Assembly: GCA_020833055.1 (NCBI GenBank)
Contig: JAJHQZ010000012.1
Coordinates: 1 to 30,586, forward strand
Length of the DNA: 30,586 bases
Direction: 5' to 3'
Origin: Candidatus Korarchaeum sp.
GTDB taxonomy: Archaea > Korarchaeota > Korarchaeia > Korarchaeales > Korarchaeaceae
A program made the position numbers and the translations under genes. Positions within the stretch are counted from its first letter, which is position 1. Each line of letters starts with the position of its first letter. Positions 9,678-30,586 of this stretch are shown piece by piece. The notes under the pieces were generated by a model. That model saw only the letters and a list, made by a program, of their open reading frames with translations, did no database searches and was not told the DNA's origin.

Positions 9678-9692
9678 GCCCCTCGCCGAATT

Positions 9693-9706
9693 GGAAATTT
9701 TATTAA
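9693..9706 (+). promoter_or_regulatory. TATA-like promoter of threonine dehydratase
   Basis: ggaaattttattaa is centred about 27 bases before ATG 9728. The spacing supports 9728 as a leaderless start rather than the in-frame ATG/TTG codons at 9691-9709, which overlap this promoter. Confidence 0.5.
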
Positions 9707-9727
9707 TGATGAGTGATCAGGATCCCT

Positions 9728-10928
9728 ATGAACCCCGAGGAGATCTTCAGTATGATAAAGCTAGCAGCTGCTTGGAGCCGGTGATACGCAAGACACCCGT
9801 CATGATCAGCGAAGCTATATCGCGACTGTCGAGAGCGGAGGTATTCCTGAAGATGGAGAACTTCCAGAGGACTGGATCCTTCAAGGTTAGAGGGGCTTAT
9901 TACAAGATGAGCAAGATGAAGGGAGTTAAGAGCGTCGTCGCGGCTAGCTCCGGAAACCACGCGCAGGGGGTATCTTACTCAGCTAGCCTCCTGGGTATGA
10001 AAGCCAAGGTAGTGATGCCGAAGTATACGCCCTTCTTCAAGGTGAATGCCGTTAAGGGCTATGGTGGCGAGGCGATCCTACATGGAGAGACTTACGACGA
10101 TGCTTATCTCAAAGCTATGGAGATCTCCAAGGAGGAGGGGATACCCTTCATACATCCCTTCGATGATCCCGAGATAATAGCTGGGCAGGGCACTATAGGA
10201 TTGGAGATAAGCGATCTGGATTTCGATGCCGTCATAGTGCCTGTGGGTGGAGGGGGCCTCATATCCGGGATAGCTATAGCTGTCAAGAGATTGAAGCCCA
10301 ATGCAAAAGTAATAGGGGTTCAGCCGGCTGGAGCTCCCTCTTCTTATCTCTCCTTCAGGGAGGGAAGGATTGTGGAGACCGATATAGCTTACAGTATCGC
10401 TGATGGCGTTATAGTTAAGAGGCCTGGGGAATTGACCCTGAAGATCATGAGGGAGTTCGTTGACGATATAGTATTAGTTGACGATAGGGAGATAGCTAGA
10501 GCTATATTCCTACTATTGGAGAGGGAGAAAACTGTCGTTGAGGGAGCTGGGGCGCTCCCGGTAGCAGCTCTACTATCTGGGAAGCTTAGGCTGGGGGGAG
10601 GAGGGTCGTCTGCGTCCTCTCCGGTGGTAATATAGATCCACCGATGCTGGATAGGATAATGAACAGGGTCTTACTGCTCGAGGGAAGGCAGATAAAAGTG
10701 ATGGGGGTCCTGCCCGAGAGACCGGGGCAGCTGAAGAGGGTCATCGATGTAGTTGCTGAGCTAGGCTTCAACATAGTTGAGATCGAGCATGAGAGGTTGA
10801 ACCCGCTCATACATCCTGGCATGACTCAAGTCACGCTAGTGCTCGAGGTCCCCGGCAGGGAGTACGCTGACCTCCTCATATCTAGGCTGAGGGGCATGGG
10901 GCTGGAGTTCAGCCAGGTCATGTTTTAA
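9728..10928 (+). pseudogene. ilvA: Threonine dehydratase with ACT domain, two frameshifts
   Basis: The enzyme converts threonine to 2-oxobutyrate and ammonia with PLP. Three reading frames in a row encode one normal protein of about 400 residues. From ATG 9728 one frame gives MNPEEIFSMIKLAAA, the expected first helix, then hits TGA at 9782. A second frame picks up at TTG 9772 (LEPVIRKTPV) and carries the PLP lysine (SFKVRGAYYK), SSGNHAQG and the phosphate loop VGGGGLISG, ending at TAG 10633-10635. A third frame supplies RVVCVLSGGNIDPP from 10602 and the ACT domain (residues PERPGQLKRVI and on) to 10928. Each break needs one added base, at TT near 9772 and at the six-G run 10593-10598. All catalytic motifs survive, so this is either a base-calling error or a very recent lesion. 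Confidence 0.85.
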
Positions 10929-10959
10929 TCCTTCAATCCCCCACCAGCTAGGTGGTCCC

Positions 10960-11352
10960 ATGGTGGAGTACGTATTCACTGACAGGGCTCCGAAGCCCAT
11001 AGGTCCCTATAGTCAGGCCGTTATAGCGGGCAACTTCGTCTTCCTAGCCGGGCAGATACCCATCGACCCGAAGACCGGCGAGCTCGTCGATGGCGGTATA
11101 AAGGAGCAGACCAGGAGGGTCCTGGAGAACATAAAGGCTGTCCTTGAGAAAGCCGGGTGCTCCCTCAAGGATGTTGTCAATGTCACGGTCTTCCTCAAGG
11201 ATCTATCCTATTTCAATGAATTCAATGAGGTATATAGCGAGTACTTCTCGGAGAACAAGCCAGCCAGAGCGACTATTCAAGTCGCAGCCCTGCCCAAGAA
11301 CGCTTTAGTTGAGATAGTGGCTATAGCTTATAGGGAGTCACTCCACGATTAA
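10960..11352 (+). CDS. ridA: RidA (YjgF) enamine/imine deaminase
   Basis: 130 residues, full family length. RidA hydrolyses the 2-aminoacrylate and 2-aminocrotonate enamines released by PLP dehydratases to oxo-acids. The key residues are present: R103 in [12 protein letters not shown], which pairs with the substrate carboxylate, and E118 in ALVEIVAIA, with the usual N-terminal GPYSQA and GQIPIDP. The ATG at 10960 follows ggtgg. Its position directly after threonine dehydratase, the enzyme that produces its substrate, is a textbook functional pairing. The last 15 bases overlap the end of the convergent HtrA-like gene. Confidence 0.95.
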
Positions 11353-13221: not shown

Positions 13222-15675
13222 TCAGAGCGATTTGTGCTCAGTCCTCTCTATTATCTCATCCTGGAGCCCCTTCGGTAAGTTGACGAAGTAATCGCTGTAA
13301 CCGGCTACCCTGACCATGAGGTCCTGGAAGTCCTGGGGCCTCCTCTGAGCTTCCCTCAGGAGCTCAGCGCTGACGACATTGAACTGCACGTGATGACCAC
13401 CGAGCCTGAAGAAAGCTCTGATGAGTTGAGCTAGCTTCCTCAAATTCTCCTCACTATCAAATATATCAGGCGTGAGTTTCTGGTTCAGGAGGGCCCCTCC
13501 AGTCTTGTCCCAATCGCACTTAGCGACGCTCCTGAAGACAGCTGCTATACCTCTCCTATCCATGCCTTGCACTGGAGATACGCCCTCAGATACCGGGAAT
13601 CCCGCAGCTCTGCCATCAGGCGTCGCTCCAGTCACCTTCCCGAAGTATACGTGGACTGTCGTGGGCAGGAAGTACGCTCTCCTCGATGCCTTCCTCACGG
13701 GACTCCTCGGATAACTCTCTATAAGCTCCACGATCTTATCGACTACTTCCTTAGCTATGGAGTCAGCGTAATCGTTATCGTTCCCGAATTTGGGCGTCTT
13801 ATCAGGGTTCCTCAGTATCTCCCTGAGGAACTCGTACCCCTCGAAGTTCTTTGAGAGCGCATCCAAGAGCTCCGACATAGATACGGTTCCCTTCTCGAAT
13901 ACATGGTACTTTATAGCAGCTAAGCTGTCAGTTATAGTACCCAATCCGACCACTTGGATGTACTGAGTGTTGTACCTAGCTCCTCCGGCGTTGTAATCCT
14001 TCGCTTTCTCAACGCAATCCTCTATCCAGAGGGAGAGGAACGGGACTGGGAGGTACTTAGCGTATAGAGCTTCGATTATATCATTCCCCTTCATCTTTAT
14101 GTCCAGGAAGTACTTCACTTGCTTGATGAAAGCATTCCAAAGGTCCTCAAAGCTCTTGAACTCCCTCGGATCCCCTGTCTCAAGGCCTATCTTCTTCCCG
14201 GTCCTGGGGTCTACCCCATTATTGAGAGTTATCTCCAGTATCTTGGGCAAGTTGAAGTAACCCGTCAGTATGTAGCACTCCTTCCCGAAGGAGCCAGATT
14301 CAACGCACCCACTCGCCCCAGAGGTCCTGGCATCCTCTAAGCTCTTCCCCTGCCTCAGCATCTTCACAACGATACCATCGAAATTGAAGAACGGGGGCTC
14401 CCCGAACCCAGGGCCCACTACTTTTAGGGCCTTTATTAAGAAGCTATCTGGATTTTTCTCACTGATCAGAACCGCAGTATTGGGCTGGAGTGTCCTCATC
14501 TCATCCAGGACTTCCAATATTAAGTAGGAGAGTTCGTTAACACCGTCCTTCCCGTCCTTCGTCAAGCCCCCTAAGTTCAGCTTGGAGAAATCGTTGTAAG
14601 TGAAGCTCTCCTCAGCTGTGACTCCCACCTTAGGGACAGCTGGCTGATTGTTGAACTTGAGCCAGAATGCTTGCAATAACTCCTTAGCCCTCTCCCTAGT
14701 CAGTCTCCCTTCCTCTATATCCTTCTTGTAGAATGGATAGAGGTGCTGATCTATCCTCCCAGGGCTGAAAGAGTCCCATGGGTTCGTCTCATAAGTGATA
14801 CCTACGTGTATGAACCAGTAATGCTGAAGAGCCTCCCAGAATGTTCTGGGAGCATGAGCTGGTACCCATCTGCATATTTCAGCCATCTGCTCTAACTCCT
14901 TCTTCCTCTCAGGATCCTTCTCCTCCTTAGCCATCTGCTCCAATTTCTCAGCGTACCTCCTAGCGTATATCATTATGGCATCGGCCACTATATCCATGGC
15001 CTTGAGCTCCTCCATCTTCTCGTAGTACTCAGGATCTGAGGGATCTAAGGATTCCATCTTCCTCCTTATCTGTTCCTTTATGTCTAAGACTCCCATCTTG
15101 AATACTCTCTCCCCGCCGGCAGTGTGCCCGGGAGCCCTCTGCTCCATGAACTCAGTAAAAACACCTGCCTCGTAAGCGTCTATCCACTCCTCGGGTAAGC
15201 TCTCGAATATTATGTCCCTCATGGCCCTGCCTCTCCAGAACGGTATCGCTTCCCTCTCATAGAACTCCTTGGTCTCCTCATCTACCTTGTAGGGCATGTT
15301 CTTCCTCTTATCGAGGATCTCGAGATCCTCGAGGCTGTGGACGCATATCTCAGGGTAAGTCGGGACTTCCTTAACCCCAGTCCCCCTGAGGCCAACTATT
15401 AGCTGGCCCTCCTCGATGGGGAGGCTGACTCTCTCCATGAGGTACTTGAACGCTAGAGCCCTCTGAACTGGGATCGATTTCCCCTTCGGGATATCGCTCT
15501 TGTAAAATTCAGTGATTAATTTAGCCCTCTCTAGGGATACCTTGACTTGAGCTTTAACACTCTCCTCCCTCAACTTAGCGATCCTCTCATTTATCGGCCT
15601 AATTACACTCCTCCTCTTCTCAACTTCCTTCAGAATCTTGACCTCGCAAGAGGCTTCGGGGGTAATGGGAGTCAT
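13222..15675 (-). CDS. Glycyl radical enzyme, HypD/PflD-like dehydratase group
   Basis: 817 residues. The thiyl cysteine C457 with base E459 is in SGCVESG, and the glycyl radical site is G792 in RVAGYSDYF, so both halves of the active site are intact. The CVE motif excludes true pyruvate formate-lyase (which has two adjacent cysteines). Residues I recall as lining the trans-4-hydroxyproline dehydratase HypD pocket have counterparts at a near-constant offset of 23: H184, D301, S357, F363, C457, E459 and Y473, with a Thr near 672. The archaeal relative PflD of Archaeoglobus is also of this group, with unknown substrate. GAGGAGGTG precedes the ATG, and a 20-base direct repeat surrounds the promoter. 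The activase follows in the same operon. The exact substrate is not proven. Confidence 0.9.
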   Translation of the reverse strand: MTPITPEASCEVKILKEVEKRRSVIRPINERIAKLREESVKAQVKVSLERAKLITEFYKSDIPKGKSIPVQRALAFKYLMERVSLPIEEGQLIVGLRGTGVKEVPTYPEICVHSLEDLEILDKRKNMPYKVDEETKEFYEREAIPFWRGRAMRDIIFESLPEEWIDAYEAGVFTEFMEQRAPGHTAGGERVFKMGVLDIKEQIRRKMESLDPSDPEYYEKMEELKAMDIVADAIMIYARRYAEKLEQMAKEEKDPERKKELEQMAEICRWVPAHAPRTFWEALQHYWFIHVGITYETNPWDSFSPGRIDQHLYPFYKKDIEEGRLTRERAKELLQAFWLKFNNQPAVPKVGVTAEESFTYNDFSKLNLGGLTKDGKDGVNELSYLILEVLDEMRTLQPNTAVLISEKNPDSFLIKALKVVGPGFGEPPFFNFDGIVVKMLRQGKSLEDARTSGASGCVESGSFGKECYILTGYFNLPKILEITLNNGVDPRTGKKIGLETGDPREFKSFEDLWNAFIKQVKYFLDIKMKGNDIIEALYAKYLPVPFLSLWIEDCVEKAKDYNAGGARYNTQYIQVVGLGTITDSLAAIKYHVFEKGTVSMSELLDALSKNFEGYEFLREILRNPDKTPKFGNDNDYADSIAKEVVDKIVELIESYPRSPVRKASRRAYFLPTTVHVYFGKVTGATPDGRAAGFPVSEGVSPVQGMDRRGIAAVFRSVAKCDWDKTGGALLNQKLTPDIFDSEENLRKLAQLIRAFFRLGGHHVQFNVVSAELLREAQRRPQDFQDLMVRVAGYSDYFVNLPKGLQDEIIERTEHKSL

Positions 15676-15764: not shown

Positions 15765-16385
15765 CTATGCATCCTCAACTGAGCTCTCCGATGTCGAGGA
15801 CATCTTCCTCTCCAGATACTCTCCGAAGAAGGCCCATGCTGAGAATACACCGACTAGAGCCCCTATTCCTATCGCGAAACCTAAGGAGAGCGCGAATTTT
15901 ATCTCATAAGTCAAGTTGGCTAGATCTATTATCAGAGTGGCTATTATGAGGGAGATAAGCATCAGGAAGAACCTCTCTGTCTTCTTCTCAAATCTCATAG
16001 ATTTCACTAATGCGTCCGTGAGTACTATGGAGACTAAAGTTAGGATAACGACGCTCCCGATCCTAGTGAGGTAGCTCATAGCCTCACTGTAGAGTTGAGC
16101 TTGCTCAGGGACGAATATCCTGATTATAGCTGCTGAAGCAGCGATGAGTATGAGCGAATCCGCAAGCAATGAGAACATCCTGGCAAGGGGGAGCCTAGTA
16201 CCCTCCGGAAATAGCTCCCTTATCCCCTCCTCGAGCTTCCCGGTCTTAACGAGCCACCTTATCATCCTATTGGTCAACCTGATTATGAGCAGGGATATGA
16301 GGAGGATCAATGAAGCTAGAGCTACCTTAGGTATTGCTGCGATCACATCGTTCATGGCCTCGAGGAGCTCCTCGACTATTTGCAT
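15765..16385 (-). CDS. Small multi-spanning membrane protein, MscS-like helices
   Basis: 206 residues with about five hydrophobic segments (near residues 18-36, 68-90, 108-128, 138-158 and 162-188). The last one is Gly/Ala-rich (SLGFAIGIGALVGVFSAWAFFGEYLERK), resembling the pore-lining helix of mechanosensitive channel relatives, and the cytoplasmic beta domain of MscS is absent. A similar helix-only family is known in bacteria and archaea, so a small channel is possible. The start ATG at 16385 lies next to the stop of the transporter gene upstream, so they are co-transcribed. The C-terminus is acidic and Ser-rich. Function otherwise unknown. Confidence 0.65.
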   Translation of the reverse strand: MQIVEELLEAMNDVIAAIPKVALASLILLISLLIIRLTNRMIRWLVKTGKLEEGIRELFPEGTRLPLARMFSLLADSLILIAASAAIIRIFVPEQAQLYSEAMSYLTRIGSVVILTLVSIVLTDALVKSMRFEKKTERFFLMLISLIIATLIIDLANLTYEIKFALSLGFAIGIGALVGVFSAWAFFGEYLERKMSSTSESSVEDA

Positions 16386-16386
16386 A

Positions 16387-17697
16387 TCACACCCCGATGA
16401 GAGTTAGAGCCACCCTATATAATATGTAGAGCATCAGTAAGAGGGTAGTCAGGGCTAAAGCCGATATGAATGTCTTGAGGAGCTCTCTAGAGGCTTGGAG
16501 AGTGAAGGAGTATCCCAGGAGGCTGGTTGAGTAGATTATCTTGCTTATCTCATATGCCCTCTTAGCCGGAACTATCGCAGCTTCTTGTATCGTGATTAGT
16601 GCTATTAAAGTTGAGAGCATCTTGATGGAACCAGCTAGGATCAGGTTCTGGGAGGGGGATTGGAGGGATGTGGAGATGAGGCTCGCTGCCAAAAGTCCTA
16701 TGTAGTTGGAGGATACTAGATAAGCTGAAGCCCTTATCCTCCCGATCCTATCATTCACTTCTGAGAATACGTGCATGCCAAGTAAGTTCACACCCAGGAA
16801 TGTCAGGGAGGTGAGGAAAGATATCGCTATATGATAAGTTGGCACCGCTATGAATGGTATTGCTGCCGTGAGCAGCGAGTTCAGTAGCATGGCTGCTATG
16901 TAAGCTTTGTATCCCCTCCATACGTACGAGCCAAGGATCCCGCCGACGTTCCCTGTGATAGTGAGGGCCACTGTTATGTAAACTGGGGCCCCAAGCTCCT
17001 TCAATAGAGGACTCCAGGAGATACCAAGCATATTGCTTCCAGCGAACATGAGGCTCAGGATTAGTAGAGCTGTCCCGCTCCTTATCTTCACTTCCTCCAC
17101 GACGCTAGATCTCGGCTCTGATATCGATCTTGGTACGGGCGTCATCATCAGGAGCATGGAGCCGGAGAGGCCTACGAGGAGGGCCGTGAAGTAGAGCAAG
17201 TAGTAAGATGAGGGGGCTGTGTAAGCAGCGGAGACGTAAGTCATTACTAGGGAACCGAGCAGGGAGGAGAGGGATGATGCAGCAGATCTGTGTATCGAGA
17301 CCTCTATCACCTCATCCCCGCTGAACATGGAGTATACTGCAGCCCCTATCAGGATGCTGGTGAGGGCCGCGGATACGTTCGCTAGCATGTAAGCGAGGGA
17401 GAGGATGGGGGGGCTTAAGAGGAGGAAGGGGAGTGAGAACCACATCAATCTCTCCAATACGTGCGAGGAGATTATCACCCTCTTGAACCTGCTCTCGAAA
17501 AGCCTCGGATCCCTATAGACGATAGATGATACTAAGATCCCTCCTATCGCTGTGGGTACGAGGACGAGGGAGATATCGCGAACTGGGTAGCCGGAGTATG
17601 CTAGCATAGGTATGAAGAGACCCCTAGTTATGGAGACGTAGAAGCCCGTGAAGAAAGCCTCAGCTATCATGGATATCTTCGATAGGGCGTTTCCCAT
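16387..17697 (-). CDS. MFS-like membrane transporter
   Basis: 436 residues with 11 to 12 hydrophobic segments and a central polar loop (about residues 190-206), the general layout of the major facilitator superfamily. Short loops with the usual basic residues after early helices (YRDPRLFESRFKR) are seen, but no diagnostic substrate motif, so the cargo is unassigned. GGGGGAG precedes the ATG at 17697 by a few bases, and a clear TATA box (ctatatatag, 17741-17750) lies upstream. The gene is followed immediately by the small membrane protein at 15765-16385, suggesting joint function. Confidence 0.7.
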   Translation of the reverse strand: MGNALSKISMIAEAFFTGFYVSITRGLFIPMLAYSGYPVRDISLVLVPTAIGGILVSSIVYRDPRLFESRFKRVIISSHVLERLMWFSLPFLLLSPPILSLAYMLANVSAALTSILIGAAVYSMFSGDEVIEVSIHRSAASSLSSLLGSLVMTYVSAAYTAPSSYYLLYFTALLVGLSGSMLLMMTPVPRSISEPRSSVVEEVKIRSGTALLILSLMFAGSNMLGISWSPLLKELGAPVYITVALTITGNVGGILGSYVWRGYKAYIAAMLLNSLLTAAIPFIAVPTYHIAISFLTSLTFLGVNLLGMHVFSEVNDRIGRIRASAYLVSSNYIGLLAASLISTSLQSPSQNLILAGSIKMLSTLIALITIQEAAIVPAKRAYEISKIIYSTSLLGYSFTLQASRELLKTFISALALTTLLLMLYILYRVALTLIGV

Positions 17698-22125: not shown

Positions 22126-23676
22126 TTAACTCTTGTATATCGTGGAGTACGTGAGTAACATCGGTGGACCCACTAGCACGCCATTCACATTCTTCTGAGT
22201 TATGAGTATGAGCTCTCCCTGGAATAGAGGGATCAGAGGAGCATCCTCAGCTAATATCCTCTGTACCTCCGCATAATAGTTGCTCCTCACTTTAGTATCT
22301 ACTTCAACAGCTGCTTTATCGAGTAGTTCATCAACTCTGGGGTTTGAGTAGCCTGAAGCGAGCCACCTGTTGGACTCGGTCCTGAGGAAGGGTGTTAGGT
22401 AATCGTCAGGATCTATGTAGTCAGGATACCATCCCAGGAGGTGAATGTTCATCCTCCCAGATCTCTGCTGCTCTAAGTAAGTTGCCCATTCGCTGCTCTT
22501 CAGTTCTACTTCTATCATTCCAGTTGCCTCAAACTGCTTCTTGAGGAGTTGAGCTACATCAGCCTCAGTGTCACCGTAGTGAGTGGGCGTGTACCATAGC
22601 TCTATCTTAAGCTTTTTAGTCTCGCTATAGCCCGCTTGAGTTAGGAGCTTGCGGGCCATCTCCAGGTTCGGTTTATCACCGTACTTCTCCTTGAAGACAT
22701 CTAAGTGGCTCCACATCCCATTGGGTACCATGCTGTAGAGAGGAGCCACACTCCCCAGGAATACCTTATCCACTATCTCAGATCTATCGACAGCGTAAGC
22801 CAATGCCTGCCTGACCAATACGTTGTTGAACGGAGGCGTATCTACCTTCAGCACTATGTACCTTATGAATCCTCCTGGTGCGACTACGCTCTTGTAGTTA
22901 GGATTGTTCATGAGGTCCTTGTAATCCGTCGGCCTGAGGGTCTTCCAAGCTATATCTATCTCTCCCCTCTCTAGAGCGAGCCTCATCGTCGAAGCATCCT
23001 TGTAGAACCTTATCACGAAGCTCGGGCTCTTCGGCTTATCCCCATGGTAGTACGGGTTGGCCTCGAGTATAAGATACTCATCCCTCTTGAACTCCTTGAT
23101 GCAGTAAGCCCCAGCCCCTCCCCAAGTAGCATCGCTGACTATCTTGTCCTCTGGGTAGCTCGGGTGGACTGGGAAGTATGGAGGTGTAGCCACTAGGGCG
23201 AGGAAGTAGCTGACTGGCTTTTTGAGTTTGAATTGCACAGTATAATCATCCAAAGCCACTACATCCTCTACGAAATCAGTTACGAGCCAAGCTGGGTCCC
23301 CATTTATCTTCATCACTCTCTTAATGCTCCTGACGACGTCTTGAGCTTTAACCGGGGTGCCATCGCAGAACTTGACGTTCTTCTTGAGGTAGAATACCCA
23401 AGTAGATCCTCCGTCCTTCACTTCGTACCTCTCAGCTATGCCAGGGATGAGTTTGTCCGTACCGGGCTCGTACTTGTACAAGCCCTCCCCGACGTTAGAG
23501 AGGACCTCCCACGTGAAGAAGTCATATGCGTTAGATGTATCCAAATCGGAGATCTTATCCGTGGTTCCTAAGGTTATCCTAGCGGTAGGAGGAGCTGGTC
23601 TAAGGAGGAAATAAGCTGCTGCAGCGATTATTATTATGAGGACGACTAAAATCGCTAGTAAATACGCTCTCCTCAT
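22126..23676 (-). CDS. Solute-binding protein of Opp/Dpp-type ABC importer
   Basis: 516 residues from ATG 23676, which has GGTGGTG four bases upstream; GTG codons just before it are less likely. The N-terminus is a short basic stretch and one long hydrophobic helix (AYLLAILVVLIIIIAAAAYF) that probably anchors the protein, with no lipobox cysteine. The remainder is a family 5 extracellular binding protein: WVFYLKKNVKFCDGTPVKAQDVV, DRSEIVDKVFLG and NIHLLGWYPDYIDPDDYLTPF are typical segments. It captures a peptide, or possibly an oligosaccharide since archaeal members of this family bind both. It is divergent from the permease and ATPase genes at 23848-27567, with which it forms one transporter. 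Confidence 0.93.
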   Translation of the reverse strand: MRRAYLLAILVVLIIIIAAAAYFLLRPAPPTARITLGTTDKISDLDTSNAYDFFTWEVLSNVGEGLYKYEPGTDKLIPGIAERYEVKDGGSTWVFYLKKNVKFCDGTPVKAQDVVRSIKRVMKINGDPAWLVTDFVEDVVALDDYTVQFKLKKPVSYFLALVATPPYFPVHPSYPEDKIVSDATWGGAGAYCIKEFKRDEYLILEANPYYHGDKPKSPSFVIRFYKDASTMRLALERGEIDIAWKTLRPTDYKDLMNNPNYKSVVAPGGFIRYIVLKVDTPPFNNVLVRQALAYAVDRSEIVDKVFLGSVAPLYSMVPNGMWSHLDVFKEKYGDKPNLEMARKLLTQAGYSETKKLKIELWYTPTHYGDTEADVAQLLKKQFEATGMIEVELKSSEWATYLEQQRSGRMNIHLLGWYPDYIDPDDYLTPFLRTESNRWLASGYSNPRVDELLDKAAVEVDTKVRSNYYAEVQRILAEDAPLIPLFQGELILITQKNVNGVLVGPPMLLTYSTIYKS

Positions 23677-23847
23677 ACACACCACCGGATTTTACTGTAT
23701 CGGGGGCCCTGAAATATAAAAAGTTTATGGTGCACTCTTTTATGGATCCGCTGTTTGAACGGAGGAATGCGATTAACGGACCTCGGGAGGAAAATTTAAA
23801 TTTTGATGTTTTTCGAAGTGAGGAGATCTTACCGGAGGAGTTCGAGG
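23677..23847. promoter_or_regulatory. Divergent promoter region of the ABC importer
   Basis: 171 bases between the binding protein and permease genes. Minus strand: TATA-like ctttttatatttc at 23711-23723, about 41 bases before ATG 23676. Plus strand: TATA-like element inside the perfect palindrome AAAATTTAAATTTT (23791-23804), about 50 bases before ATG 23848. GGAGG near 23834 is the plus-strand ribosome site. The shared region lets both halves of the importer be controlled together. Confidence 0.55.
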
Positions 23848-24858
23848 ATGGGGCTCGCTAGATACATTGGGGTGAGGACCCTCCTGATAATACCGACTAT
23901 AATGATCCTCTATACGCTGGTATTCTTCATCTTGAGGATCCTCCCGGGGAATCCCGTCTTAGCGGTGCTGGGTACGAAGAACATACCTGAGGAGCAATTG
24001 AGGGCCATAATGGAGAGGCTCGGTTTGAACAAGCCCATTCACGTCCAGTACTTCGAGTACTTAGCTAACCTGCTCAGGGGGGATATGGGGGTCAGTTTAG
24101 TGATTCAGGGGAGGCCCATAGCTCGAGATATAATTGAGAGGCTTCCAGCGACTATAGAGCTCTCTATCTCCTCCATAATAGTCAGCTTAGTCTTAGGGGT
24201 CTCGTTCGGTTATATAGCTGCCAGGAGAAGGGGAAAGATCATAGATTCTTCTATAAGGGTCCTCGGCTCATTTCTGTACACTATATTCATCCCTTGGTTC
24301 GGTATGCTCCTCCAGATAATTTTCGGGATCTGGTTGAGGCTCCTCCCGATAGGGGGGAGGATCACGCCTGGGATAGCTCCTTCAGGACCGACTGGATTCG
24401 TCCTCCTCGACTCACTCATTCAAGGGGATTTATATGCCTTCCTAGATTCCCTCAAGTACCTGATACTCCCATCTATAACTTTGGGAATAATGCTGAGCGG
24501 CCCTTACATGAGGTTAGCGAGGAACAACATGATCAAGGCACTGGACTCTGGTTTCTCCCTAGCTTATAGGGCGAGGGGGATTAAGGAGGATAAGATAGTC
24601 AGGTACTCTCTCAAGCACGCTATGATACCTGTAGTCACATACACCGGGCTTCAGTTCGCCCTCTTACTGGGAGGGGCTGTCTTAACTGAGACAACCTTCA
24701 GTTGGCCGGGTATAGGGACTTACTTAGTTGAGAAGGTCTTTTACAGGGATTATCCAGCGATACAGGCTGTTGTGATAGTTTTCGCTTTCTTCGTTGGTGT
24801 GATAAGCTTGATCGTGGATATTATTTACGCTTACATAGATCCGAGGATAAGGTATTGA
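23848..24858 (+). CDS. dppB: ABC importer permease, DppB/OppB type
   Basis: 336 residues from ATG 23848. That start is chosen because the TATA region lies at 23791-23804, which would make the earlier TTG/ATG (23803-23806) part of the promoter, and because GGAGG is nine bases upstream. Six membrane helices are visible. The first (VRTLLIIPTIMILYTLVFFILRILPGNP) is followed by the long periplasmic-type loop of the DppB family, and the EAA-like coupling motif AYRARGIKEDKIVRYSLKHA binds the ATPases. It ends with DIIYAYIDPRIRY, the standard family C-terminus. The next gene starts nine bases on, so it is the first gene of a four-gene operon. Confidence 0.94.
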   Translation: MGLARYIGVRTLLIIPTIMILYTLVFFILRILPGNPVLAVLGTKNIPEEQLRAIMERLGLNKPIHVQYFEYLANLLRGDMGVSLVIQGRPIARDIIERLPATIELSISSIIVSLVLGVSFGYIAARRRGKIIDSSIRVLGSFLYTIFIPWFGMLLQIIFGIWLRLLPIGGRITPGIAPSGPTGFVLLDSLIQGDLYAFLDSLKYLILPSITLGIMLSGPYMRLARNNMIKALDSGFSLAYRARGIKEDKIVRYSLKHAMIPVVTYTGLQFALLLGGAVLTETTFSWPGIGTYLVEKVFYRDYPAIQAVVIVFAFFVGVISLIVDIIYAYIDPRIRY

Positions 24859-24867
24859 GGTGAGATT

Positions 24868-25677
24868 TTGTCAATACGCGGGAACCTCTTCTTAATCTCC
24901 GGGATAGTTATAGTGGCCTCCATACTCATCATATCGATTCTAGCTGATTACATAGCCCCGTTCTCATACGATGAGGTCGCCGGCCCCCCTCTATCCCCTC
25001 CTAACGGGGTCAACTTGATGGGCACTGATAACTTGGGCTACGATGTTTGGTCCAGGATCGTTTACGGATCCAGATCAGTCTTATTCGTCGTCTTCACTTC
25101 TATAATACTCAGCGCGGCAATAGGGATCCCACTGGGTCTCCTCAGTGGTTACATAAGTGGGAAGCTCGATAAGGCTCTCTCATTCATAATGGATTCTATA
25201 TACGCATTCCCGAGCCTCGTCCTAGCTATAGCTCTAGCAGTAGTGCTCGGACCTTCCCCAGTGAACGCTGCTATAGCGATAGCTATAGTCTACGTGCCGA
25301 CTTACTTCAGGATGGTCAGGGGGCAGGTGCTCAGCGTGAAGACAGAGCCCTTCATAGAGGTGAACAGGGCCCTCGGGCTCCCCCTGGCTAGGATGCTCTT
25401 CAGACACATAATGCCCCATGTAGCCCCCACGATAATGGTAGTCTTCAGTTTGAGCAGCACTGATGCCGTGCTGACTGAAGCTGCCCTCAGTTTCTTAGGC
25501 CTCTCAGTTCAACCACCCACTCCGGATTGGGGATATGAGCTCTACAAAGGTAAGGGGTTCCTCCTCTCAGGCGCTTGGTGGATGGTCTTCTTCCCAGGGC
25601 TCATGATAACGCTACTGGCCATGGGATTCGCTCTGATAAGCGAGGGATTGAGCAAGGGGGAGAGGGAGGTGATATGA
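24868..25677 (+). CDS. dppC: ABC importer permease, DppC/OppC type
   Basis: 269 residues starting at TTG 24868, with GAGGTGAG three bases upstream. DppC features are NLMGTDNLGYDVWSRIVYGSR near the N-terminus, about six hydrophobic helices, the coupling motif EVNRALGLPLARMLFRHIMPHV, and FLGLSVQPPTPDWGYEL near the end. It pairs with the DppB-type permease to form the membrane pore. The stop overlaps the next gene's ATG (ATGA), showing coupled translation. Confidence 0.95.
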   Translation: MSIRGNLFLISGIVIVASILIISILADYIAPFSYDEVAGPPLSPPNGVNLMGTDNLGYDVWSRIVYGSRSVLFVVFTSIILSAAIGIPLGLLSGYISGKLDKALSFIMDSIYAFPSLVLAIALAVVLGPSPVNAAIAIAIVYVPTYFRMVRGQVLSVKTEPFIEVNRALGLPLARMLFRHIMPHVAPTIMVVFSLSSTDAVLTEAALSFLGLSVQPPTPDWGYELYKGKGFLLSGAWWMVFFPGLMITLLAMGFALISEGLSKGEREVI

Positions 25678-26612
25678 TGCTCAAGATAGAGGACCTCAGC
25701 GTGAGGTACTTCACTAAGAAGGGAGTAGTTTACGCTGTGGATAACGTATCCCTCGAGGTCAGGAAGGGAGAGGCTTTAGCTTTAGTTGGCGAGAGCGGGA
25801 GCGGTAAATCCACCTTAGGCTTCGCGATAATGAGGATAGTCCCTCCTCCAGGGAGGATAGTGGGAGGCAGGATAATCCTCGAGGGTAGGGATATAATGGG
25901 GCTGAGAGAGGAGGAGATGAGGGAGATAAGGGGATCCAAGGTCTCCATGGTATTCCAGGATCCCTTCACTACGCTAGACCCTCTGAGGAGGGTGAACGAT
26001 ATAGTGGCTGAGGTCATGATAGAGCATGGAGTGGATGAGAGGGAAGCGAGGGAGAGAGCTATACATTTATTGAGGCGTGTAGGTATACCTGAGAAGTTAA
26101 TTGACGCGTATCCCCACCAATTGAGCGGGGGGCAGAAGCAGAGAGTAGCTATAGCTGCAGCCATAGCGATGAACCCCTCCCTGCTCATAGCTGATGAGCC
26201 CACAACAGCACTGGATGTGATAGTTCAGAGGCAGATAATGGACCTCCTTGATGAGATAAGGAAGGAAATGAGCATGATCTTGATAACTCACGATATAGCT
26301 CTAGCTCTAGAGAGGGCAGACAGGATATGCGTGATGTACGCTGGTAAGGTGATGGAAGTAGCTGATAAAGGTATGATTATGAAGGAGGCTCTGCATCCAT
26401 ATACGAAGGGGCTCCTCTCCTCATTGCCAAGGCTCCTCTCGAGAGAATGGCCCTCATCAATCCCGGGGACGCCTCCGGATCTCAGGGAGCCACCTAAGGG
26501 ATGCAGATTCCACCCTAGGTGCAGTAAGGCTATGGATATATGCAGAGAGCAGACTCCTGATCTCTTCAGCGTAGACGGACGCTTGGTCTCCTGCTGGTTA
26601 TATGGGAGGTGA
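25674..26612 (+). CDS. dppD: ABC importer ATPase, DppD/OppD type
   Basis: 312 residues from ATG 25674, four bases inside the previous stop, with GGAGGTGAT upstream; a longer reading from 25575 would lie inside dppC. Walker A is GESGSGKST, the Q-loop VFQDPFTTLDP, signature LSGGQKQR, Walker B LLIADEPTTALD, and the switch His is in ILITHDIAL. The C-terminal extension PPKGCRFHPRC, with further cysteines after it, is the iron-sulfur-type motif common in OppD/DppD. It hydrolyses ATP to drive import, as a heterodimer with the next gene's product. Confidence 0.96.
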   Translation: MMLKIEDLSVRYFTKKGVVYAVDNVSLEVRKGEALALVGESGSGKSTLGFAIMRIVPPPGRIVGGRIILEGRDIMGLREEEMREIRGSKVSMVFQDPFTTLDPLRRVNDIVAEVMIEHGVDEREARERAIHLLRRVGIPEKLIDAYPHQLSGGQKQRVAIAAAIAMNPSLLIADEPTTALDVIVQRQIMDLLDEIRKEMSMILITHDIALALERADRICVMYAGKVMEVADKGMIMKEALHPYTKGLLSSLPRLLSREWPSSIPGTPPDLREPPKGCRFHPRCSKAMDICREQTPDLFSVDGRLVSCWLYGR

Positions 26613-26616
26613 TCTA

Positions 26617-27567
26617 ATGCTCCTGAAATTAGAGGCCGTCAAGATGTACTTCTACTTAGGTACTCTCGGGAGGAGGAAGGTCGTCAGGGCTGTAGATGGA
26701 ATAGATGCTGAAGTCGAGAGGGGGGAGGTGCTCGGTATAGTTGGCGAGAGCGGGAGCGGTAAGTCGACCCTCGGTAGAGTGGCTCTGAGGCTCTATAAAC
26801 CGACTGAGGGCAGAGTGATATTCGATGGCACTGATATAACTGAGATGAGCGAGGGTGCCCTCAGGAGGATGAGGAGGAGGATGCAGTTAATCCCTCAGGA
26901 TCCTTATGGGAGCTTCAATCCAGTTCAGAAGCTCGGTGACTCTCTTATCGAGCCCCTAGAGGTACACTTCGGGATATCGAGGGAGGAAGCTGGGGATAGG
27001 GTATCGAAGATGTTGGAGAGAGTCGGTCTCTCCCCTCCGGAGGAATTCATGGAGAGGAAGCCCTATCAGTTGAGCGGGGGCCAGCTCCAGAGAGTAGCTA
27101 TAGCTAGGGCTATGTTGCTAGAGCCGGATTTCATAGTGGCTGATGAGCCCACTTCCAACCTGGATCTATCTATAAGAGCCTCCATACTCGAGCTGCTCAT
27201 GGAGTTCAAGGAGAGGCTGGGGCAGGGCCTGATGTTCATAACTCACGATATAGTCCTGGCTAGCTTGATATCCAACAGGATAGCCGTCCTCTACCTAGGG
27301 AGGGTCATGGAGGAGGGGGCCACTGCTGATTTAGTCAGGGATCCGAAGAACCCATATACTAAGGCCCTACTATCCTCAATACCCCTCGAGAGGTCAGGGT
27401 TCGAGGAGATCACGCTGAAGGGGGATATAGCTGATCCATCAAACCCGCCTCCCGGATGCAAGCTGCACCCCAGGTGCCCGTACGCTATGCAGATGTGCAG
27501 CGAGAGGGAGCCACCTCTCATAGATCTGGACGGTAGGAAGGTCAGGTGCTGGCTCCAAAGCAGATAA
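26617..27567 (+). CDS. dppF: ABC importer ATPase, DppF/OppF type
   Basis: 316 residues from ATG 26617. GGAGGTGA lies four bases before, within the end of dppD; an ATG at 26602 would put the ribosome site inside the gene. Walker A GESGSGKST, signature LSGGQLQR, Walker B FIVADEPTSNLD and switch ITHDIVL are intact, and the C-terminal PPPGCKLHPRCPYA cysteine motif is present. It is the second ATPase of the importer and ends the operon. The next gene, deoxyhypusine synthase, starts 26 bases later behind an AT-rich stretch that may be its own promoter. Confidence 0.96.
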   Translation: MLLKLEAVKMYFYLGTLGRRKVVRAVDGIDAEVERGEVLGIVGESGSGKSTLGRVALRLYKPTEGRVIFDGTDITEMSEGALRRMRRRMQLIPQDPYGSFNPVQKLGDSLIEPLEVHFGISREEAGDRVSKMLERVGLSPPEEFMERKPYQLSGGQLQRVAIARAMLLEPDFIVADEPTSNLDLSIRASILELLMEFKERLGQGLMFITHDIVLASLISNRIAVLYLGRVMEEGATADLVRDPKNPYTKALLSSIPLERSGFEEITLKGDIADPSNPPPGCKLHPRCPYAMQMCSEREPPLIDLDGRKVRCWLQSR

Positions 27568-27593: not shown

Positions 27594-28529
27594 ATGGAGT
27601 ACGTAAAGGACATAGTATGGAAGCCAGGGATGGGCGTGAGGGAGTTAGTTGAATCCCTCGGCAGCATAGGATTCCAGGCCACTGAGCTCTATAAAGCGGC
27701 CGAGATATTCTTCAAGATGAAGAGGGAGGGAGCTAAAGTAATACTGACTTTCACATCTAACATGGGGACTTCGGGGCTCAGGGGACTCTTCGCTCAGTTA
27801 GTGAAGCTCGGGATAGTGGATGTGCTGATAACTAGTGTCGGAGCGATAGAGGAGGATGTGATGAAGGCCCTGGGGGAGAGGTTCTACATACATCGCTTCT
27901 CAGCTGATGACGTGGAGTTGCATGAGCTCGGTATGAATAGAGTCGGGAACATACTCATAAGTAACGATAGTTACGCTAGGTTCGAGGCATTCATCACGCG
28001 CTTCATAGATGAGCTAGAGGTGAGGAAGCTAACTGTCTCAGATTTCCTCAGGGAATTGGGGCTCAGGTTGAGCGATGAGAACTCCTTCCTCTATCAAGCA
28101 GCTAGGAGGGGAGTCCCTATCTTCTGCCCAGCTATAACTGATGGTGCCCTCGGCTTCCACTTATTCATGGCTAGGGAGAGGCACCCGGATTTCGAGCTAG
28201 ATGTCATAGGGGACTTCGGGAAGATGGTATTGATGCTGAGTCAGGAGGACAGGAAGGGCGTGATAGCCCTCGGAGGGGGGGTATCTAAGCATCACGCGAT
28301 ACTCATGACTCTGTTGAGCGGAGGGGCTGATTACGCTATCTACATAACTACATCCACTCAGTTCTCAGGCAGTATGAGCGGCGCGACTACATCTGAGGCG
28401 AAGAGCTGGGGGAAGATAAAGGACGATTCTGACTCAGTCACCGTGATAGGGGATGCCACTATCCTATTCCCGCTGATCGCTTTCTACACTATAGAGAGGC
28501 TGAGGGAGGAGGGGCTCCTGAGGTGGTAA
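27594..28529 (+). CDS. dys: Deoxyhypusine synthase (or close homologue)
   Basis: 311 residues. The enzyme transfers the aminobutyl group of spermidine, using NAD, to a lysine of translation factor aIF5A. The catalytic lysine is K274 in SWGKI (human K329), with W272 and E268 beside it, H234 in GGGVSKHH, and NAD-site pieces FTSN, GAIEED, TDG (D183) and GDAT. Human pocket aspartates D243, D313 and D316 correspond to F188, S259 and M261. I believe archaeal enzymes often vary at these sites, so this may not signal a new activity, but a polyamine other than spermidine, or homospermidine synthesis, is possible. ATG 27594 lies about 25 bases after an AT-rich cagataaattaat. It overlaps functionally with the decarboxylase one base downstream. 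Confidence 0.88.
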   Translation: MEYVKDIVWKPGMGVRELVESLGSIGFQATELYKAAEIFFKMKREGAKVILTFTSNMGTSGLRGLFAQLVKLGIVDVLITSVGAIEEDVMKALGERFYIHRFSADDVELHELGMNRVGNILISNDSYARFEAFITRFIDELEVRKLTVSDFLRELGLRLSDENSFLYQAARRGVPIFCPAITDGALGFHLFMARERHPDFELDVIGDFGKMVLMLSQEDRKGVIALGGGVSKHHAILMTLLSGGADYAIYITTSTQFSGSMSGATTSEAKSWGKIKDDSDSVTVIGDATILFPLIAFYTIERLREEGLLRW

Positions 28530-28530
28530 C

Positions 28531-29565
28531 TTGGCCAGGTTCATACTGAGCAAGAGAGTAGCTCTCAGGCAGTACTCAATAGCGAGGAGTTACTGCGATG
28601 CCCTGGCTTACAGTTACAAGACTAACCCCCACGTATGGGAGGTGCTCAAGGAGACAGATTCCATGGTAGGAGTCAGTTCAATAGCCTCAATGGAGAGAGT
28701 GGAGGGGGGGAGGGCAGTTTACTACTTGCAGGGGGAGAGGGAGGATGAAATAAGTTACTTACTCGATAGAGGGGTGAGATGGTTCATAGTAGATAATGAA
28801 CCGGAGCTCGGAAAATTCATAAAGGTAGTTGAGAGGAGGGGGGAGAAGGTAAATCTATTTATCAGAGTAAAGATGAGGGAGCACACGATATATACGGGGA
28901 AGCACTTCGTCTACGGGATAGACTGGAGGAAGGTCCCCAGGATAATAGAGGAGATCAGGTCAGATCAGATAGATCAACTGGGGATCCACTTCCACAGGAA
29001 GACTCAGAACGTGGGGGAGTGGAGCCTGAAGGAGGATGTATCTGAGGCCTTAGCTGATTCCCTCGAGCTCATAGATTGGATAAACATAGGCGGAGGCATC
29101 CCAGTGAAGTACGCGAATTCAAAGCCAGAGGTAGATAATATCTTAAGGGAAATAGGGGAGCTTAAGGAGTTCCTCAATTCTAGAGGGATAAAGCTCATGA
29201 TGGAACCGGGGAGGTTCATAGCAGCACCTTCAGTAGCACTAGAAGCTGAGGTACTGAACGTATATGAGGGTAACGTAATCCTCGATTGCTCTATATTCAA
29301 CGCTTACATGGACACTTACTTACTCAACATAAGGCTCCCGGTCCTAGGGGAGCTCGAGGGAGGCGGGTTCAGGTACTTGCTCAAGGGGAGGTCCCCCGAC
29401 TCCCTGGATATATTCAGGTACTCGGTCTACTTGGATAGGGAGCTGAAGCCGGGGGATAAGGTGATATTCCTGAACGCGGGCGCCTACAACTTCCACACCG
29501 AGTTCAATGATATGCCGAAAATAAGGGTCGAGATAGTGGACGATTTCCCCTTCTCACTCCCTTAG
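28531..29565 (+). CDS. Fold-type III PLP decarboxylase, polyamine/amino-acid type
   Basis: 344 residues, starting at TTG 28531 two bases after the deoxyhypusine synthase stop, with gaggtgg upstream. It belongs to the ornithine/diaminopimelate/carboxynorspermidine decarboxylase superfamily: PLP lysine K30 in SYKTNP, HFHRKTQN (H153), the glycine loop INIGGGIP (187-189), EPGR (225-228), and the closing GAYNFHTEFN (317-326). The C-terminal motif that normally reads GPxCDxxD, with a catalytic Cys from the partner subunit, reads GRSPDSLD here, so that Cys is Pro289. The substrate is unknown. The tight link to deoxyhypusine synthase suggests it makes or alters a diamine or polyamine used in the same pathway, although lysine biosynthesis is an alternative. 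Confidence 0.8.
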   Translation: MARFILSKRVALRQYSIARSYCDALAYSYKTNPHVWEVLKETDSMVGVSSIASMERVEGGRAVYYLQGEREDEISYLLDRGVRWFIVDNEPELGKFIKVVERRGEKVNLFIRVKMREHTIYTGKHFVYGIDWRKVPRIIEEIRSDQIDQLGIHFHRKTQNVGEWSLKEDVSEALADSLELIDWINIGGGIPVKYANSKPEVDNILREIGELKEFLNSRGIKLMMEPGRFIAAPSVALEAEVLNVYEGNVILDCSIFNAYMDTYLLNIRLPVLGELEGGGFRYLLKGRSPDSLDIFRYSVYLDRELKPGDKVIFLNAGAYNFHTEFNDMPKIRVEIVDDFPFSLP

Positions 29566-30586
29566 TATGACTTGGCTCATGCAGTGAGGACCTCCATAAC
29601 CTCCTGTCAGGGCTGAGAAGTCTAGGAGATCGGCTTTAACACCGTACTCCTTCAGCCTCTCCTCAAAGGACTCTCCTGCCTGCTTAACCCCTATTATCCT
29701 CTTCTCCTCGAGGAGGAGGAAGTTAGGAGCGAAGTTCCTCTGTTCCTCAACAGTTATCTTGAATATCTCGAACCCCTTCTCCTCTAGGTATTTCCTGAGG
29801 GTCATCTCCCCCTTCCTCTTATAGCTCACCCTCTCCTCAGCCACGGGTTCGAACACCTCAACTGAGGGCTCCCTCCCCTCTACCATCCTGTCCTCGGAGA
29901 GTAGAGCCAGCTTACTGCTGAGGAAGTTGAAGTAGGTATCGAGGTGCATCTCCTCCATACCAGGAGTCGGATCCCTGACTAGAGCTACTTCAACGTCCCC
30001 GTAGACCCCATTATCTAGCATCTGCTTCACCCCATCCTCATCGCTCAGGAGGCCCACGCCCTGAAGGACGAAATCGCCGGCCGGCATGAAGTCCCCTCCT
30101 TCAGCATGCCCCGGCTCCCTAACCCTATATATGGGCTCTATACCCATCTGCCTAAGGGCCAGCTCTACTATATCGTTCTCTATCTTCCTCACGTCTAGGG
30201 TGAAGTTCCCTATGACTACGCCCTCCTTAGTAGTCAGCATCCCGTCCCTCATGAAGTATAGGTTGTTCGCCGGATCCAAGCAGTAGCTAGAGAGGAACCT
30301 AGTGGTCGGATCCAGGGCCCTGGGGTTGTACCTTATTTTTATTATGGGCCTCAGTATTATTATATCGGCCAGCACCTCGGGGCTGAGTACATCTATCGTC
30401 CTCCTGAGGTTCGATAGCAGTTGCTCCCTATCCTCATCCGATATCCCATCGAAAGTATACTTCACACTATTAAGGGCGAATTCCCTCAATCTCCTGAGGT
30501 TACCCGGATCATCGCACTTATTGATGAGCATCTCCCTGACATCATATACCTTAGCTCCGAACTCCTCAAGTTTCCTCCTATAATTC
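29554..30586 (-). CDS. Arginine deiminase-family enzyme, N-terminus beyond window
   Basis: The frame stays open from the ATG at 30531 to base 30586, and the extra codons (NYRRKLEEFGAKVYDVRE) match the family, so the true start lies right of the window. Of the visible residues, numbered from 30531, the guanidine-modifying core is complete: D96 (FMRD), E144 (EGGDFMP), H196 and D198 (MHLDT), and the nucleophile C317 (GGPHCMSQ). R115, equivalent to one of two substrate-carboxylate arginines of arginine deiminase (R185), is kept. The second (R243, in the usual GERSS segment) is replaced: the segment reads GVGLLSDED. The usual product is citrulline plus ammonia; another guanidine substrate such as agmatine is possible. 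It converges on the decarboxylase with a 12-base overlap. Confidence 0.82.
   Translation of the reverse strand, partial: NYRRKLEEFGAKVYDVREMLINKCDDPGNLRRLREFALNSVKYTFDGISDEDREQLLSNLRRTIDVLSPEVLADIIILRPIIKIRYNPRALDPTTRFLSSYCLDPANNLYFMRDGMLTTKEGVVIGNFTLDVRKIENDIVELALRQMGIEPIYRVREPGHAEGGDFMPAGDFVLQGVGLLSDEDGVKQMLDNGVYGDVEVALVRDPTPGMEEMHLDTYFNFLSSKLALLSEDRMVEGREPSVEVFEPVAEERVSYKRKGEMTLRKYLEEKGFEIFKITVEEQRNFAPNFLLLEEKRIIGVKQAGESFEERLKEYGVKADLLDFSALTGGYGGPHCMSQVILRE

Follow-up and report, generated by a model that had tools for sequence, protein, structure and literature searches.

We identify in the genome of a heat-loving korarchaeon a gene that very likely encodes a trans-4-hydroxy-L-proline dehydratase (HypD), a glycyl radical enzyme known from gut bacteria, where it serves in the degradation of hydroxyproline from collagen. 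The gene lies in a 30,586-nucleotide stretch of DNA (the window) that is one whole contig of a 1.39-Mb genome in 25 contigs, rated 99.5% complete. Our analysis establishes membership in the HypD family, the active-site residues, the fold, an activase and the gene context. The HypD reaction and mechanism are ascribed to the korarchaeal enzyme by homology, and the fate of its product and the source of its substrate are proposed more loosely. The kind of enzyme is already known, and the novelty lies firmly in its archaeal host range; no earlier report of an archaeal HypD was found among the open-access papers searched.

Assignment to the HypD family

The hypD open reading frame is intact, with an ATG start and a GGAGG ribosome-binding site upstream, and the PFL-like and Gly_radical domains of Pfam together span the full length of its product (Table 1). 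The product scores 1167.7 bits against the HypD equivalog model of NCBIfam (NF043068), above the cut-off of 1100, with the next equivalog at 582. Its best PDB match by sequence is C. difficile HypD (6vxc, 960 bits), to which alignment gives 53% identity and full-length homology, followed by glycerol dehydratase at 500 bits. Older automatic names call such proteins pyruvate formate-lyase or glycerol/propanediol dehydratase, as do the PFL-like name of the Pfam domain and weak matches to formate C-acetyltransferase models. We give these names almost no credence, as the pyruvate formate-lyase models (Pyr_form_ly_1 / TIGR01255) reach 151 bits where 994 are required, the double cysteine of that enzyme is missing from the korarchaeal sequence, and glycerol dehydratase, besides its far lower score, carries Phe in place of S334 and His in place of D278. 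Choline TMA-lyase CutC was likewise rejected (TIGR04394, 512 bits, below the cut-off of 1050).

Structure comparison agrees with this assignment. An AlphaFold model of the protein (pLDDT 85.5, pTM 0.89; residues 671-703, in model numbering, below pLDDT 50) superposes on 6vxc with a Z of 45.7 and an rmsd of 1.9 Å over 774 residues, whereas all other eliminases reach a Z of at most 41.9. Among these is the C-N-cleaving hydroxy-D-proline lyase HplG (7vua, Z 41.4), a member of the same superfamily with a related substrate. That the korarchaeal protein is such a lyase is highly improbable, given 413 bits against 960 for HypD and a structural-alignment identity of 30% against 51%.

In a tree of 85 sequences, 81 rows including C. 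difficile HypD are split from four other glycyl radical eliminases with 100 SH-aLRT. The tree was built by a quick method with four outgroup rows and carries a warning of long branches meeting at C. difficile HypD; the split between HypD and other eliminases is nevertheless the branch that matters, and the curated NF043068 model supports it independently. Placement relative to the HypD clade had been named beforehand, in an earlier note on this DNA, as the test of its proposal, and the protein falls inside. Of the two readings offered there, an archaeal hydroxyproline dehydratase is the one that the tree, the curated model, the structure comparison and the residues described below favor over a new dehydratase with the same pocket. 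The premise that glycyl radical enzymes are uncommon in archaea fared less well, since 39 of the 71 tree rows assignable to a domain are archaeal, the rows being the nearest relatives of the query. Archaeal and bacterial rows are interleaved (the domain label changes six times, compared with 24 times when labels are shuffled), which fits exchange between thermophiles.

Table 1. Coordinates of the hypD locus and of related features. Locations without a prefix refer to the window.
Feature	Location	Strand	Basis
hypD, glycyl radical enzyme, predicted trans-4-hydroxy-L-proline dehydratase, 817 aa	13222..15675	-	NF043068, 6vxc, residues, tree, model
hypD activase, radical-SAM glycyl-radical-enzyme activating protein, 299 aa	12311..13210	-	TIGR02494, NF043069, motifs
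Cys457 codon, predicted thiyl radical (= C434 of C. difficile HypD)	14305..14307	-	alignment; position computed from ORF coordinates
Glu459 codon, CXE motif (= E436)	14299..14301	-	alignment
Gly792 codon, predicted glycyl radical site in RVAGYSDYF (= G765)	13300..13302	-	alignment
MscS-like small membrane protein	15765..16385	-	PF05552 22.1 bits; 89 bp upstream of hypD
MFS-like transporter	16387..17697	-	PF07690 24.6 bits, under its cut-off
HypD-like glycyl radical enzyme, Thr variant (G057)	L114:6083-8467		
HypD-like glycyl radical enzyme, Thr variant (G065)	L116:7860-10244		
HypD-like glycyl radical enzyme, Thr variant (G060)	L117:4053-6434		
DUF4125 genes beside hypD or activase	L004:11391-11942, L008:6610-7170, L074:11345-11899, L053:2803-3354, L031:3608-4117, L114:4593-5141		PF13526

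Conservation of the active site

Ten positions from a mutagenesis study of C. difficile HypD (PMC7077986) were located in the korarchaeal protein by a MAFFT alignment with the 6vxc sequence. Korarchaeal residues are numbered with the first Met as 1; the AlphaFold model and one alignment (query 13222-15672) lack it, and numbers there are one lower. The seven pocket positions named in the earlier note are all identical (H160 is H184, D278 is D301, S334 is S357, F340 is F363, C434 is C457, E436 is E459 and Y450 is Y473), as are three further mutagenized positions (D339 is D362, T645 is T672 and G765 is G792), giving 10 of 10. The near-constant offset of 23 reported for them holds from D278 to Y450 but is 24 at H160 and 27 at T645 and G765. 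The expected line-up of the pocket is thus borne out by all ten aligned residues, with the fold nearest to 6vxc in an overall structure comparison.

Backman et al. found H160, D278, D339, E436, S334, F340, C434 and G765 to be needed for HypD activity, and Y450 and T645 to be important (PMC7077986). The CXE motif is conserved among glycyl radical eliminases, the E436Q variant of HypD being inactive, whereas Asp278 and Asp339 are strictly conserved in HypD but not in other eliminases (PMC7077986). The ten HypD residues are also identical in the 79 other alignment sequences wherever the positions are covered, and F152, R156, W277 and K326, which line the HypD active site (PMC7077986), appear conserved in the alignments by eye.

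The four other eliminases have just four or five of the ten residues in common with HypD, indicating that the ten-residue set is not a general signature of glycyl radical enzymes: glycerol dehydratase (HHFMYCEFSG) and Archaeoglobus PFL2 (HQFTNCELMG) each match at 4 of 10 columns, CutC at 4 of 9 readable columns, and the N-methyl-cis-4-hydroxy-L-proline dehydratase 8id1 (EASMFCEDVG) at 5 of 10. Glycerol dehydratase (1r8w) and CutC (9f3w) have the glycyl radical eliminase fold and the CXE motif but carry Phe at the Ser357 column and lack Asp301 and Asp362. The Archaeoglobus fulgidus PFL2 (2f3o), which the earlier note had treated as a relative, also is an archaeal enzyme and belongs to the same glycyl radical superfamily, but it is not a close relative, with 36% identity and only H, C, E and G of the ten positions in common.

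A HypD-clade enzyme that keeps the pocket chemistry but acts on something else, for instance a different isomer of hydroxyproline or an N-methylated form of it, is unlikely, though less so than the other alternatives. Several glycyl radical enzymes use other hydroxyprolines (7vua, 8iof, 8id1), a racemase/epimerase gene accompanies hypD in some genomes, so that other isomers may be present, and identity to the characterized enzyme is just 53%. Against this, none of the ten residues that serve catalysis and substrate binding in C. difficile HypD is changed in the korarchaeal protein; 8id1 differs at five of them.

Locus organization and host genome

The activase gene begins 11 bp downstream of hypD and is the sole adjoining hydroxyproline gene around hypD in the window. 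Its product contains the CxxxCxxC motif (GCPLRCWWC) and two ferredoxin-type 4Cys motifs, and scores 353 bits against TIGR02494 (cut-off 174); with the HypD activase model NF043069 it reaches 348 bits, under the cut-off of 425, yet this is its best equivalog. Compared with C. difficile HypD (6vxc, 6vxe; PMC7077986), the system has in common the full-length homology, the ten residues, the fold and the adjacent activase, and differs in its korarchaeal host, the lack of an adjacent proC and an activase under the curated cut-off.

On the other side of hypD, the MFS-like transporter is a possible uptake gene, and the MscS-like protein might just possibly have a role in hydroxyproline use. The order of this pair beside hypD is kept in four Korarchaeum-like genomes, two of which (G055 and G067) have extra genes between the pair and hypD, including in G055 an amino-acid permease (PF13520). 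Elsewhere in the window, threonine dehydratase-like, ACT-domain and RidA genes stand in a row at 9691-11352, convergent with the hypD side, and probably form a unit for amino-acid deamination that includes its own imine-clearing enzyme.

The closest genome, G054 (a single contig of 1,590,757 bp), has a HypD 97% identical to that of the window and a matching gene order over ~20 kb, with Candidatus Methanodesulfokora as the next named relatives at 87%. Based on this identity and gene order, the host is very probably Korarchaeum-like and bacterial contamination of the window is unlikely.

Proposed reaction and fate of the product

We propose that the activase would use S-adenosylmethionine and a 4Fe-4S cluster to generate a radical on Gly792, which would pass to Cys457; the Cys457 thiyl radical would then abstract a hydrogen at C5 of the substrate hydroxyproline. 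Departure of the C4 hydroxyl as water would be assisted by Glu459 together with His184 and Asp301, yielding delta1-pyrroline-5-carboxylate (P5C), while Ser357, Tyr473 and Thr672 would hold the substrate carboxylate and Phe363 would pack on the ring. P5C may be converted to proline by ProC where proC is present, as in most close relatives, or a class III aminotransferase may turn its open form, glutamate-5-semialdehyde, into ornithine. The hydroxyproline might be supplied by uptake of amino acids or peptides.

Genes of the host make P5C a plausible metabolic node. An aminotransferase homologue matches 7vno, which we take to be a Pyrococcus ornithine delta-aminotransferase, at 708 bits. Another gene matches 3vqr at 274 bits; 3vqr is presumably the dye-linked proline dehydrogenase of A. 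pernix to which PMC4364671 refers. Oxidation of P5C to glutamate was rejected as a candidate route, the sole aldehyde dehydrogenase found in the genome being of the methylmalonate-semialdehyde type.

Consistent with the earlier note, no proC lies in the window, and none was found in the flanks of hypD there or at any of the relatives' loci examined. In gut Clostridiales, by contrast, proC stands beside hypD; this arrangement is a gene-order feature of one lineage and not of the enzyme. The genome-wide search for a pyrroline-5-carboxylate reductase suggested in the note gave a divided answer, with no proC in the host's own assembly but one in most Korarchaeum-like genomes. Across the phylum, proC occurs in 17 of 29 genomes, including G054, G055, G057, G065 and G067, all five with HypD; among the 45 HypD-bearing relative genomes, many of them MAGs, it was found at the cut-off in 17 and was absent in 28. 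In G054, proC (at 754 kb) falls within a ~100-kb stretch (C1, ~687-787 kb) to which none of the examined contig ends of the host genome maps. Either this large stretch has been deleted from the window's genome or the assembly is incomplete there, and a gap is as likely an explanation as loss of proC. We therefore dropped the idea that this archaeon lacks ProC and sends P5C elsewhere, as the syntenic, complete G054 and 17 of the 29 genomes do have proC.

A second contig of the host genome (C8, L098) encodes a proline racemase family protein together with a branched-chain (amino-acid)-type ABC transporter, an amino-acid permease, an M20 peptidase and an ornithine-cyclodeaminase-family protein. 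The site residues of this racemase are Cys...Cys, the type of racemases/epimerases and not of trans-3-hydroxyproline dehydratase (PMC4364671). Among the 29 genomes of the phylum, HypD is present in 10 and the racemase in 8 (one broken), with both in six, a co-occurrence with a one-sided Fisher p of 0.009 for the whole set and 0.02 within the genus, uncorrected for relatedness.

A second HypD type in Korarchaeia

Korarchaeia hold two HypD types, of which the window's enzyme is the canonical one. The other, found in G057, G065 and G060, is 61% identical to it and scores 1139-1154 bits against the HypD model, above the cut-off. In this variant GCVE becomes GCVT (GCVTIGAFGKE), the other nine of the ten positions being unchanged, and RAPGHT is replaced by RAMGHA. 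Given that the CXE glutamate is conserved in characterized eliminases and that E436Q inactivates C. difficile HypD, the HypD label on the variant is doubtful. With somewhat less than even confidence, we suggest that the variant dehydrates a different proline-like compound or uses a different acid-base route, while databases call it HypD. In G057 (C45), an SBP-LivGFHM-type transporter (L114:9130-14012) runs divergently from the HypD-type gene, and a proline racemase gene that is broken comes after the transporter (L114, ~14182-14562). Its ABC proteins are 60-75% identical to those of the C8 transporter in the window's genome, where the transporter/racemase set is intact.

Distribution and gene context in other archaea

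HypD relatives were found in Thermococcales, DHVE2, Thermoplasmata, Aigarchaeota and Asgard MAGs, and the neighboring genes speak for a role in hydroxyproline metabolism. Two Thermococci MAGs (L047 and L058) have hypD followed by a proline racemase gene and then the activase gene, and the L047 racemase matches that of Thermococcus litoralis (6r76) at 707 bits. The T. litoralis enzyme epimerizes 4-hydroxyproline, and the organism accumulates trans-4-hydroxyproline (PMC4364671). Pyrroline-2-carboxylate (P2C) reductase homologues lie near hypD in seven loci (568 bits to 6t3e in L057), Xaa-Pro peptidase homologues in nine and amino-acid permeases at some others. Close homologues of both enzymes of the T. 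litoralis racemase/epimerase cluster (6r76, 6t3e) thus occur near hypD in Thermococci MAGs, but the cluster itself was described without a glycyl radical enzyme, the word 'glycyl' being missing from the text of PMC4364671.

That korarchaea, Thermococcales, Thermoplasmata and Asgard archaea have HypD with its active site complete raises the possibility that anaerobic hydroxyproline breakdown extends to hot springs, vents and sediments, and links this enzyme to the earlier work on hydroxyproline epimerase in T. litoralis (PMC4364671). The korarchaeal HypD also offers a testable heat-stable enzyme.

At 16 relative loci, genes for oligopeptide-transporter-type ATPases are found no more than 8 kb from hypD, and the window holds a full oligopeptide ABC transporter operon at 22126-27567; such genes near hypD fit a peptide-derived source of hydroxyproline. 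Beyond this operon, at 27594-30531, are a deoxyhypusine synthase gene and then a decarboxylase-fold protein, with an arginine-deiminase-family protein on the opposite strand, the latter two without a close curated family. A DUF4125 gene stands beside hypD or the activase at five loci, from Thermococcaceae, DHVE2 and Thermoplasmata, and at the second korarchaeal type (Table 1); its product may be an accessory of the HypD system.
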